Shown piece by piece: positions 2,478 to 28,692 of a stretch of 64,000 bases of DNA. Source of the stretch: Flavobacterium sp. 9 (GTDB taxonomy: Bacteria > Bacteroidota > Bacteroidia > Flavobacteriales > Flavobacteriaceae); contig NZ_PEEU01000001.1 of NCBI RefSeq assembly GCF_002754195.1, positions 6,138,001 to 6,202,000 of the forward strand, given 5' to 3'. A model generated the notes under the pieces. That model saw nothing but the letters and a program-made list of their open reading frames with translations. It did not search any database and was not told the origin of the DNA. A program made the translations under genes and the position numbers. Positions within the stretch are counted from its first letter, which is position 1. Each line of letters opens with the position of its first letter.

Positions 2478-3812
2478 TTACTTTTTGAATTTTTTAACAG
2501 GTTTTTCAGTTACTTCAACTTTGTTTTGTAAAACGTAATTTGCCATCAATTTTTCAATTAATTCATCCTTTGTAAGATGGTGAAAAACTGTTTTTACCTT
2601 TGTTTTTAAATCTGCTGAAATATCGTGATTTGGCTTCGTTTTAAAGATTTGTTTCGCCCATAAAAGCGTATTGTTTTCTTCTAAACTTACAACTGAAGGT
2701 TTTTGGAATTTAGTAAATTTTATCCCTAATTCTTTTTCAAATTCCGGAATTTCAACCACTTCTTCCTCTTGCAAAACCGTTAAAGAAAGTCCTTTTGCTC
2801 CTGCTCTCGCAGTTCTTCCGCTTCTGTGAACGTAAGTTTCATAAGTATCCGGTAAATGATAATTTACAACATATGAAATTTCTTTTACGTCGATTCCTCT
2901 CGCAGCTAAATCTGTAGCAACCAAAATATTAATGTGTCCTTCACGGAATTGCTCCATTATTCTGTCTCTAATTCCTTGTGATAAACTACCGTGAAGCGCG
3001 CCTGAAGAAAAACGGTTTATGGCTAAGTTTTTAGCCAGTTTATTTACTGCAGCTTTAGTTTTACAGAAAATGATTCCGCGTTCGCCATCTTTTGAATTTA
3101 AAAAATACATTAAAACATCCAATTTTTCGATTGGATCAACAACAATATATTCGTGATCAATTCCTTGGTTACCAACAGTTTCCATGTTTGCGCTAACCTG
3201 AACTACATTTTTGTTTAAGTAATTCTGAATCAATTGTTTAATTATTCCCGGTAAAGTTGCAGAGAACAATAAAGTGCGGTGTTTTTTAGGAAGTTCGGCT
3301 ACGATTTCGTCCAAGCTTTCCTTTAGAATTGAAACCATTTCATCTGCTTCGTCTAAAACTAAATATTCAGCTTGTTTTAAGTCAATTGCTTTACGCTGAA
3401 TCAAATCGATCAAACGTCCCGGAGTTGCAACAACAATATGTGTTGGTTGTGTAAGGCGTTCAATTTGTGGCTTAATGGGGATTCCACCACAAGTTGAAGC
3501 TATAGAGATATTTGGAATATGTTTTCCAAAATCCTCTAAATTTCTGAATATTTGCTGTCCAAGTTCTCTGGTTGGAACCAAAATAACGGCTTGAACAACA
3601 GAAGATTTTGTATTGATTAATTGCAATAATGGCAATCCGAAAGCGGCAGTTTTACCGGTTCCGGTTTTGGCTAAACCTACAACATCATGACTTTCAGATA
3701 AAAGTAACGGAATTGTTTTTTGCTGAATTTCTGTTGGTTCAACAATATTCAATTCGCTTAAAGCTTTTAAAATTGGTGCTGAAATTCCTAATGATGAGAA
3801 TTGTTTAGACAT
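2478..3812 (-). CDS. DEAD-box ATP-dependent RNA helicase
   Basis: All core motifs are visible in the 444 residues: Q motif region (LSELNIVEPTEIQQKTI), motif I AKTGTGKT, Ia PTREL, Ib TPGR, II DEAD, III SAT, IV IIFCKT, V ATDLAARGID and VI HRSGRTARAG. The C-terminal tail is lysine-rich (EKPVKKFKK), as in RhlE/CsdA-like helicases that remodel rRNA or cold-stabilised mRNA. It probably acts in ribosome assembly or RNA turnover in the cytoplasm. Stand-alone gene with a 200-base upstream spacer holding an inverted repeat. Confidence 0.92.
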   Translation of the reverse strand: MSKQFSSLGISAPILKALSELNIVEPTEIQQKTIPLLLSESHDVVGLAKTGTGKTAAFGLPLLQLINTKSSVVQAVILVPTRELGQQIFRNLEDFGKHIPNISIASTCGGIPIKPQIERLTQPTHIVVATPGRLIDLIQRKAIDLKQAEYLVLDEADEMVSILKESLDEIVAELPKKHRTLLFSATLPGIIKQLIQNYLNKNVVQVSANMETVGNQGIDHEYIVVDPIEKLDVLMYFLNSKDGERGIIFCKTKAAVNKLAKNLAINRFSSGALHGSLSQGIRDRIMEQFREGHINILVATDLAARGIDVKEISYVVNYHLPDTYETYVHRSGRTARAGAKGLSLTVLQEEEVVEIPEFEKELGIKFTKFQKPSVVSLEENNTLLWAKQIFKTKPNHDISADLKTKVKTVFHHLTKDELIEKLMANYVLQNKVEVTEKPVKKFKK

Positions 3813-26348: not shown

Positions 26349-26717
26349 ATGAAAAAATCTAAATTATTTATCTTCGGAATTGCAATGGTGGCAGTATTAA
26401 TGATTTCATGTCATAAGAGTAGAAATGAATTGGTGAACTCCTGGAAAGTTACCGCCGTTGAGCCTAAAATGCCTCTCTCTGATTCAATAAAAAATGTAAT
26501 TCTAACTGAAGGAACATTAACCTTCACTAAAGATGGGCATGTAACTGGATATTTGCAGAGCGAAATCAATAATGGTACTTATGCTTTGACAAAAGGAGGA
26601 AAAAGTTTAGTAATTAAAGATGAAACCGGTACTCCATACCCTTGCGAAAGTACTATAACAGAAGACAAACTGATACTGGATAGTAAAGAAATGAAACTTA
26701 CCCTTAGCAAAATATAA
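26349..26717 (+). CDS. Lipocalin-like lipoprotein
   Basis: The 122-residue product has a lipoprotein signal (FGIAMVAVLMISC). A short beta-barrel-like domain begins NSWKVTAVEPKMPL and includes FTKDGHVTGYL. This is the pattern of the lipocalin-like DUF4923/DUF5004-type lipoproteins of Flavobacteria. It is probably periplasmic and membrane-anchored. A terminator follows within 45 bases, so it is monocistronic. Confidence 0.75.
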   Translation: MKKSKLFIFGIAMVAVLMISCHKSRNELVNSWKVTAVEPKMPLSDSIKNVILTEGTLTFTKDGHVTGYLQSEINNGTYALTKGGKSLVIKDETGTPYPCESTITEDKLILDSKEMKLTLSKI

Positions 26718-26760
26718 CCATCAAAGTTCATTGTTTATGAACTCAAAATATTTAATCAGC

Positions 26761-26798
26761 AAACCATATTGTACCCAAAAGCAATATGGTTTTTTTAT
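26761..26798 (+). terminator. Terminator after the lipocalin-like gene
   Basis: AAACCATATTG (26761-26771) and CAATATGGTTT (26782-26792) form a perfect stem followed by a T-rich run. Confidence 0.85.
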
Positions 26799-26959
26799 TT
26801 TTTTTTAAAAGAGTTTGCCACGATTTTTGCGAATTAATTTCGGGCAATAAATATTAAAAAAAATCTGTTTAAATCTGCGTAAATCTGTGGCTAATTTTTA
26901 AGCAGTTTCAAAATAAAAATTTGAAAAAATTCGTTACAAAAAAACAAATTCCCCTACCC

Positions 26960-26991
26960 TTTGCACACTAAAACATAAAATTATATCTTTA
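26960..26991 (+). promoter_or_regulatory. Promoter of the ABC-F gene
   Basis: TTTG (26960-26963), a 20-base spacer and TATCTTTA (26984-26991) match the Bacteroidota -33/-7 pattern TTTG...TAnnTTTG, apart from the last base. It predicts a transcript start near 26998 and a leader of about 108 bases. Confidence 0.65.
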
Positions 26992-27020
26992 CAAAGCTTA
27001 TAACTAAAGCATTAATTTAT

Positions 27021-27050
27021 GTGAAAAATAATTTCTTTCAGGCAATTTAG
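27021..27050 (+). CDS. Putative leader peptide (9 codons) upstream of ABC-F gene
   Basis: A GTG start at 27021 opens a frame fMKNNFFQAI with stop TAG at 27048-27050. It lies about 23 bases after the predicted transcript start and 55 bases before the ABC-F ATG. Codons 3-7 contain the left arm of a perfect 12-bp inverted repeat whose right arm covers the ABC-F start codon. It is too short to judge by composition. The case rests on its placement. Confidence 0.45.
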   Translation: MKNNFFQAI

Positions 27051-27107
27051 AGAGTAAACCGCAATTTGTGGTGGCTCAATTTATTCATCTTTAGAGAAAG
27101 AAATTAT
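27028..27107 (+). promoter_or_regulatory. Putative translational attenuator hairpin sequestering the ABC-F start
   Basis: ATAATTTCTTTC (27028-27039) and GAAAGAAATTAT (27096-27107) are perfect 12-bp complements. The second arm includes the first two bases of the ATG (27106-27108) and the preceding purine-rich stretch. A nested 5-bp hairpin ACCGC-AATTT-GTGGT lies in the loop near 27059. A ribosome stalled on the leader ORF would cover the left arm and free the start. Confidence 0.5.
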
Positions 27108-28692
27108 GCTTATTCTACAAAACATTTCATATAAACACAATAACAAGGAATTGTTATTTGACAACATCAGTTTTACTGTAAACAATCACGAAAAAATTGC
27201 ATTAATTGGTAATAATGGTTCGGGAAAATCGACTTTACTAAGGATTATTGCAGGCGAATCAGAACCTTTAAACGGAGAGTTGAGATTAGGTTCTGAACCC
27301 TATTATATTCCGCAGATTTTTGGACAATACAATGAACTTACAATTGCCGAAGCATTGCGTATTGCCGATAAACTTAAGGCATTTAAAGAGATAATCGAAG
27401 GCAATGTTACCGAAGAAAATCTAAATATTCTAAACGATGACTGGACAATTGAAGAGCGCTGTAATAATGCTTTAAAATACTGGAAATTACAAGATTTAGA
27501 CCTAACGGCAAAAATGAATACTTTAAGTGGCGGACAAAAGACAAAAATCTTTCTTGCCGGTATTTTAATTCATCAGCCGGAACTGGTTTTGATGGATGAA
27601 CCCAGCAATCATCTCGACGCAGCTGCCAGAGAATTGTTATATAATTTTATTGAATCTACATCGAGTACTTTGCTAATTGTGAGTCACGACAGAAGTTTGC
27701 TAAACAAACTCAATACAACTTATGAATTAAACAAACACGACGTTGCTGTCTATGGCGGGAATTATGATTTTTATGCTGAGCAAAAGCAAATCGAAATAAA
27801 TGCTTTAAATCAGGATTTACAGTCCAAAGAAAAAGCACTTCGAAAAGCCCGCGAAAAAGAAAGGGAAACATTAGAAAGACAGCAAAAACTAGATGCTCGG
27901 GGTAAAAAGAAACAGGAGAAATCCGGAGTTGCGAGAATCATGATGAACACGCTGCGCAATAATGCCGAAAATAGCAGTTCGAAACTAAAAGGAGTTCATG
28001 CAGAAAAGATTGATGGTATTTCGCAGGAATTACGTGAATTGCGCTCTTCGATTCCTGATATTGATCAAATGAAAATAGGTTTTGATAATTCAATCTTACA
28101 CAAAGGAAAAGTGCTTTTTAAGGCAAATGAAATTAATTTTAAATATAAAGAACAACTTCTTTGGAAAGAAAATCTAAATATCGAAATCATCAGCGGAAAT
28201 AGAATTGCATTAAAAGGCGCGAATGGTTCCGGTAAAACGACTTTGATTAAAATTATATTAGGAGAATTAGATACCCAAATAGGAACTGTTTTTAGAGCTG
28301 ATAATAAATCAATTTATATCGATCAGGATTATTCTTTAATTCAAAATCAGCTTAAAGTTTATGATCAGGCTCAATATTTCAATACATCTGGATTAGAAGA
28401 ACATGAAATCAAAATGCGTCTTAATCGCTTCTTGTTTTCAAGAGAAGATTGGGATAAACCTTGTTTTGCTTTAAGCGGAGGCGAAAAAATGCGCTTAATG
28501 CTTTGTTGTCTTACGATAAACAAAGAATCTCCGGATCTTATTATCTTAGACGAGCCAACAAATAATTTGGATATTCAGAATATTGAAATCCTGACCAAAG
28601 CAATTAACGAATATCAAGGTTCACTGATTGTAGTTTCGCACGATACTTATTTCTTGGAACAGATTAATATTGAGAACTTTATAGTATTATAA
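27106..28692 (+). CDS. ABC-F family ATPase (possible ribosomal-protection type)
   Basis: The 528-residue protein has two ABC domains in tandem without membrane segments. The first has Walker A GNNGSGKST (about residue 36), signature LSGGQKTK and LMDEPSNHLD. The second has GANGSGKTT, LSGGEKMR and LDEPTNNLD. The interdomain linker (about residues 225-320) is strongly charged and coiled (KALRKAREKERETLERQQK), as in ABC-F proteins that enter the ribosomal E site. The group includes antibiotic-protection factors and house-keeping translation factors, and sequence alone cannot decide. The leader-peptide arrangement upstream resembles inducible resistance genes. Monocistronic with a terminator. Confidence 0.87.
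   Translation: MLILQNISYKHNNKELLFDNISFTVNNHEKIALIGNNGSGKSTLLRIIAGESEPLNGELRLGSEPYYIPQIFGQYNELTIAEALRIADKLKAFKEIIEGNVTEENLNILNDDWTIEERCNNALKYWKLQDLDLTAKMNTLSGGQKTKIFLAGILIHQPELVLMDEPSNHLDAAARELLYNFIESTSSTLLIVSHDRSLLNKLNTTYELNKHDVAVYGGNYDFYAEQKQIEINALNQDLQSKEKALRKAREKERETLERQQKLDARGKKKQEKSGVARIMMNTLRNNAENSSSKLKGVHAEKIDGISQELRELRSSIPDIDQMKIGFDNSILHKGKVLFKANEINFKYKEQLLWKENLNIEIISGNRIALKGANGSGKTTLIKIILGELDTQIGTVFRADNKSIYIDQDYSLIQNQLKVYDQAQYFNTSGLEEHEIKMRLNRFLFSREDWDKPCFALSGGEKMRLMLCCLTINKESPDLIILDEPTNNLDIQNIEILTKAINEYQGSLIVVSHDTYFLEQINIENFIVL

Follow-up and report, generated by a model that had tools for sequence, protein, structure and literature searches.

How might translation of an ABC-F gene be controlled when its start codon lies inside one arm of a perfect inverted repeat? 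The question is raised by a locus in the window, the 64,000-nucleotide stretch of the 6.33 Mb Flavobacterium sp. 9 genome that was analysed here, in which a 528-residue ABC-F ATPase, the candidate regulated gene, is encoded on the forward strand at 27106–28692. A preliminary description had read its leader as an attenuator in which a ribosome stalled on a nine-codon GTG frame would open a sequestered start. We compared the leader with those of orthologous genes and asked which of its parts are kept.

The ABC-F gene and its promoter

The window protein shares with ARE-ABCF structures a layout of two ABC domains and a linker of two helices; among solved sequences, VmlR2 and VmlR (chains 8buu and 6ha8) come closest to it. 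Its AlphaFold model (27 rows, pLDDT 84.2) gave Sal(B), VgaL, VmlR2 and VgaA-LC as best VIA-align matches, and EttA and YbiT follow close behind in the ABC-F searches. Against the NCBIfam family of ribosomal protection-like ABC-F proteins (NF000355), it scores 375 bits, below the curated cut-off of 380, and of six orthologues five score 388–391 and one 378. NCBIfam, PDB sequence and fold comparisons all point to an ARE-like ABC-F, and the gene is likely to encode a ribosome-protecting protein of this kind with a putative role in resistance; we leave the named ARE class unassigned, as EttA and YbiT are close, and the protein may represent an unlisted family.

The promoter-like pair claimed in the preliminary description was found in its place, with TTG at 26961–26963 and a −7 box, TATCTTTA, at 26984–26991, together a Bacteroidota-type promoter (26961–26991, forward strand; box consensus TAnnTTTG), from which we infer a transcript start near 26997–27000. 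Of 76 orthologue leaders (see below for their choice), 72 have a TAnnTTTG box no more than 60 nt ahead of the leader ATG, and in 50 of those 72 the box lies 33–35 nt before that codon. A terminator-like hairpin with a T-tail (26761–26792) probably ends a small upstream gene (26349–26717). It is the sole terminator-like site in 26700–27200 and lies upstream of the promoter, leaving the leader itself with none; transcription attenuation was rejected on this ground, and translational control is favoured. Between terminator and promoter lies an AT-rich, repeat-like stretch (26856–26895; aaatctg...taaatctg...), overlapped only by a sub-threshold Rfam match to IS128 on the other strand. No Rfam family was recognised in 26600–27300, where the one match (19.5 bits against a gathering score of 80) falls outside the leader on the opposite strand, and a known RNA family was rejected for the leader since nothing exceeded a gathering score.

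At E ≤ 1e-150, 88 of the 398 genus genomes and 23 of the 395 phylum genomes searched contain the ABC-F; the closest named loci belong to Flavobacterium. A search of genome contigs yielded 279 relatives, from which 80 loci were kept, including Flavobacterium, Niastella, Chitinophaga, Mucilaginibacter, Pontibacter, Runella, Dysgonomonas, Prevotellaceae and others. Upstream regions were extracted by script for 138 loci, many of which are the same genome present in two collections, and were thinned to 76 leaders below 90% identity (alignment A1), 57 of which make up alignment A2. Six loci had been omitted before this choice: L112 and L115, which are genuine cases against the element, L010, a partial gene, and the distant L009, L011 and L138 (31–46% identity). 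As a hold-out, we used 52 further loci of the genus; nine were identical to earlier ones over the last 100 bases, leaving 43 leaders, some of them near-identical to one another (L200/L201, L204/L205).

A stop codon right after the start codon

The nine-codon GTG frame exists in the window (27021–27050, VKNNFFQAI). As a conserved leader it did not survive the comparison: its length varies, and it is absent from 32 of the 76 leaders, in which the GTG triplet is GTA (ATGTAG or ATGTAA) and the frame is without a start codon. Among the 39 leaders that read ATGTGA, the frame runs for 2, 3, 6, 7, 9, 11, 13, 14 or 46 codons, and five have no stop within the stretch read. A classical leader-peptide attenuator built on this frame, with ATGTGA perhaps allowing termination at UGA and reinitiation at GUG, could draw on the recurrence of the nine-codon length in 18 of the 39 ATGTGA leaders and on the report that ribosomes in E. 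coli can reinitiate at the GUG of an AUGUGA site after terminating there (PMC9841429). Weighed against the range from 2 to 46 codons, the missing stops and the 32 GTA leaders, it appears very unlikely. Moreover, the codons of the frame largely coincide with the conserved left arm of the stem, so their likeness among relatives requires no peptide. The nine-codon GTG leader was therefore rejected as not conserved across orthologue leaders, an outcome that the preliminary description had itself named as counting against it.

Overlapping this GTG in the window is an ATG-TGA at 27019–27024 on the forward strand, one codon and a stop, which the first reading had missed and which we propose as the ribosome sensor. 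The aligned ATG is followed immediately by a stop in 71 of the 76 non-redundant leaders (TGA in 39, TAG in 16, TAA in 16); the other five have one GTG-TAA and four ORFs of two to five codons (MLV, MK, MKI and MKISK, each before a stop). A one-codon ORF is thus found in 72 leaders, counting 71 with ATG and one with GTG, and a short upstream ORF (uORF) precedes the ABC-F gene in all 76. As a control, 165 other ATGs within these upstream regions were considered, and 12 of them have a stop as the next codon. A quick maximum-likelihood tree built from the 76 ABC-F proteins implies that the stop codon changed between TGA, TAG and TAA at least 21 times over the 71 ATG-stop rows, the five rows with other leaders being left out; the count is approximate because 25 of the 73 inner branches are weak. 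In the 43 further leaders, classed by a script that took the ATG- or GTG-stop closest to the arm on its upstream side, 39 have ATG-stop, two GTG-stop and two ATG-TTG-TAA. The start is GTG with the stop retained in L033, L187 and L198, and the ATG-TTG-TAA leaders (L204, L205) can be read as a two-codon ORF or equally as a TTG-TAA start-stop.

A start kept as a start and a stop kept as a stop through such changes fit translation rather than a bare DNA or RNA motif. That ATGTRR is untranslated, serving as a protein- or RNA-binding motif or with the arms kept for rRNA pairing alone, would accord with the sequence conservation of both arms and with the match of the right arm region to the complement of the 16S tail; we consider it extremely improbable, given that the changes retain codon meaning (ATG/GTG; TGA/TAG/TAA), that ATG-TGG is absent among the 76 leaders, and that a sense codon follows the start only in the four leaders with ORFs of two to five codons.

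The position of the pair is also constrained. Of the 71 start-stops, 63 have 13 nt between start and arm core, and 66 of the 76 leaders have the first base of the left arm at +10, counted from the A of the leader ATG. Six loci have longer ORFs. In five of them (L006, L135, L137, L204 and L205; MLV, MK, MKI and, twice, ML), the start lies 11–13 nt from the arm and the stop floats; the exception is L136, whose five-codon ORF starts 23 nt from the arm. This suggests that the start codon rather than the stop sets the register of the device, because it is the start-to-arm distance that stays while the stop moves. The same observation bears on a second reading of the start-stop, as a sensor of termination or release-factor trouble, in which release of fMet is blocked by peptidyl-transferase inhibitors or by trapping of release factors. 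Peptidyl-transferase drugs do inhibit release, the stop would be the A-site codon of the waiting ribosome, and all three stops are used; with the start and not the stop holding its distance in five of six longer-ORF loci, we judge this reading quite unlikely. The leader ATG has T at −3 in 47 of 76 leaders, unlike the A(−3) favoured at initiation in F. johnsoniae (PMC6847099).

The stem over the ABC-F start codon

The 12-bp inverted repeat of the preliminary description is perfect in the window: its left arm (27028–27039, forward strand) is the exact complement of its right arm (27096–27107, forward strand), which overlaps the ABC-F ATG at 27106 and includes the A and U of that codon. When the leader was shuffled 20,000 times with dinucleotides preserved, the exact 12-mer complement arose in 3 cases. 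The window contains 65 ORFs of 100 codons or more; with the first ATG of each taken as its start, the ABC-F gene was the only one with a perfect repeat of at least 10 bp over its start, and none of the other 64 starts had the same layout. The fold of 26990–27130 is moderately unusual for a single sequence (z −1.94; 9 of 200 shuffles as good), so that the strong evidence is comparative.

Across the 76 leaders, 92.4% of the cells of the 12-pair stem are paired and 7 of its pairs show changes on both sides; none of 500 shuffles scored as high on any of five measures, a test that is inflated by related rows. When the stem was slid by one to three columns, 49–69% of cells were paired and both pair types and covariation score were lower; slid stems rival the real one on two-sided counts (16 cells at −3 vs 15; 7 pairs at +3 vs 7). 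It is therefore the percentage of paired cells, the pair types and the covariation score that speak for the stem. Between the arms lies an inner hairpin (27054–27075, forward strand) with two-sided changes at all 8 modelled pairs and helices paired in 58.5% and 69.8% of cells (57 leaders). Taken together in the same 57 leaders, stem and inner hairpin have two-sided changes at 15 of 20 pairs, in 84 cells vs 24–48 for slid versions. The alignment of orthologous leaders divides the earlier proposal, keeping the covarying stem and not the GTG frame. Sequestration of the ABC-F start by the stem, with attenuation at the level of translation, is well supported by these comparisons. An AGAAAG tract in the right arm region (27095–27100, forward strand) is complementary to CUUUCU in the 3′ region of the genome's own 16S rRNA, and the left arm is accordingly similar to that tail; any function of the similarity is conjecture.

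Searches with a model of the element (R1) indicate that it is tied to ABC-F starts. In its own genome, R1 finds one clear site (83.5 bits); the next match (33.1 bits, E 0.82) was rejected as a second copy, as it overlaps the 3′ end of an ORF and no start of an ORF of at least 60 codons. In 296 genomes of the phylum, searched with stricter filters under which weak members may be missed, all 14 sites at E ≤ 0.01 end at ABC-F starts. R1 also matches all 52 further genus loci, on the right strand and at the ABC-F start, where 51 of the matches have their end on the start codon and the other stops 3 nt before it. Weak opposite-strand matches on the element itself (E 0.02–0.1 in the 52 genus loci, 0.31 elsewhere) were discounted, being taken as echoes of the palindrome. 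Of the 138 earlier loci, with training rows included, R1 matches 129 (66 of 70 and 63 of 68) and misses L006, L009, L010, L011, L112, L115, L133, L136 and L138. Leader ORF and arms are visible by eye in L006 and L133, both among the 76, and less clear in L136.

The element is lacking from L112 and L115, Candidatus Symbiothrix metagenome-assembled genomes whose ABC-Fs are 69 and 67% identical, and from three gut Bacteroidales ABC-F copies (49–52% identity), and a strict pattern of the element found no match in viral contigs. A complete element (84.3 bits, ATG-TAA) lies at 2907–3003 of each of three small Empedobacter plasmids (L207, L208 and L209), before an ABC-F of about 73% identity; estT and floR follow the ABC-F gene on two of the three, and aadS is present on one. 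A Phocaeicola ABC-F copy (L211) has ATG AGA ATC TAA (MRI) about 150 nt upstream of its start, with no R1 match and no convincing stem by eye; MRI resembles the cplR uORF consensus (PMC10201436). Three ABC-F matches with one internal stop (L010, L129 and G074:C1:2860706-2862283) are possibly decayed genes.

A proposed one-codon drug sensor and its precedents

Comparison across relatives shows conservation of the start-stop, of its spacing to the stem and of the stem predicted to hide the ABC-F start, together with covariation of that stem. From this we propose that the ABC-F mRNA has a 5′ leader that works as a translation attenuator, with the one-codon ORF as its sensor, a reading that we consider likely. 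Without drug, a ribosome would initiate on the start-stop, release fMet and depart, and the stem would form and hide the ABC-F start. A drug that traps initiation, of the pleuromutilin, lincosamide and streptogramin A class, would hold the ribosome on the start-stop; the 3′ edge of the arrested ribosome, at about +16, would cover 7 of the 12 left-arm bases, those that pair with the ABC-F start. With the left arm covered, the stem would open, the ABC-F would be made and the drug would be cleared. As no leader peptide would be required, such a sensor should be independent of nascent-chain sequence. Bacteroidota mostly lack Shine-Dalgarno sites.

Several published observations agree with these steps. 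PLSA drugs trap ribosomes at initiation or just after it, and three ABC-Fs of the PLSA class were found on initiation complexes (PMC8196190). The 3′ edge of a ribosome stalled on a start codon has been placed at +16 to +18 (PMC12121999), and mRNA structure partly tunes initiation in Flavobacterium johnsoniae (PMC6847099). In silico, the unpaired probability of positions −12 to +3 of the ABC-F gene has a median of 0.21 in the free leaders (n = 76) and of 0.50 with a ribosome-sized block (−14 to +16) on the start-stop; the median is 0.21 with an equal block placed between the arms and 0.50 in shuffled leaders. The gain from the block on the start-stop exceeds 0.2 in 61 of the 76 leaders.

These figures also bear on the idea that the start-stop, as a decoy or roadblock, and the stem form a constitutive brake that keeps the ABC-F low at all times, with no drug sensing. 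E. coli start-stops have been credited with possible regulatory roles (PMC11955535, citing earlier work), which lends the idea some weight; the 13-nt spacing (63 of 71) puts a ribosome on the very arm that hides the ABC-F start, and in silico a ribosome on the start-stop makes that start more accessible, not less, and we regard a permanent brake as unlikely. As regards the attenuator of the preliminary description, the hidden start is upheld by conservation and covariation, the nine-codon leader falls away, and the start-stop pair is the more likely sensor on the comparative evidence. Induction of the gene by a ribosome-targeting drug, as that description also supposed, is plausible.

Leader attenuators are sought as peptides. 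By default, the tool uORF4u, used for Gram-positive leaders, accepts no uORF shorter than three codons, and for prokaryotes it includes a search for Shine-Dalgarno sequences (PMC10219788); at these settings a Bacteroidota start-stop would be missed. We lean slightly towards a broader claim, that the start-stop in many Bacteroidota genera is a peptide-free regulatory ORF that senses initiation arrest through occupancy of its start codon, independently of the nascent chain. If the proposed attenuator is right, the start-stop would be the simplest ribosome-based drug sensor, start-codon arrest would become separable from nascent-chain effects, and what such ABC-Fs respond to would be a directly testable question. 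The novelty for this gene group suggested in the preliminary description stands in part: uORF attenuation has been published for the Gram-positive ABC-Fs VmlR and CplR, and the literature matches listed included no ABC-F leader attenuator in Bacteroidota, no bacterial start-stop drug sensor and no one-codon version.

Outside the ABC-Fs, three systems share single features with the element. Before E. coli topAI, arrest by retapamulin or tetracycline at the start codon of the toiL uORF derepresses the downstream gene, as proposed here, whereas toiL is longer, senses other drugs at inner codons and controls a different gene (PMC12121999). Ribosome profiling in E. coli and Campylobacter has found starts followed directly, or nearly so, by stops, like those described here; the Campylobacter sites have two to three codons and are internal and out of frame, and the available part of that report gives no tie to a drug-sensing stem ahead of a resistance-type gene (PMC11955535). 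The tetQ leader of the Bacteroides element CTnDOT likewise controls a ribosome-protection gene of Bacteroidota by translation attenuation, with the differences that the drug is tetracycline and the protein is of another family; the passages on it in a review make no mention of a start-stop (PMC5418344).

The closest precedents are ABC-F leaders of Gram-positive bacteria. In Bacillus subtilis, vmlR is preceded by a very short uORF (Met-Ile-Asn), initiation on which is required for induction, and its main ribosome-binding site is hidden in a hairpin; that leader has three codons, a Shine-Dalgarno sequence and a terminator/antiterminator, whereas the one here has one codon and no terminator-like site (PMC9226507). 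In Clostridioides difficile, drug arrest just after initiation on the uORF MR[I/M] similarly governs the ABC-F gene cplR, with three codons rather than one, in a Gram-positive host and with the Shine-Dalgarno sequence of the main ORF inside a terminator hairpin; the uORF consensuses of cplR, vmlR2 and lsaA comprise three to four residues (PMC10201436). Judging by the two- to five-codon leaders found in diverged relatives, longer leaders may have shortened to a logical minimum, and the element is best read as attenuation of the VmlR and CplR kind cut to one codon.
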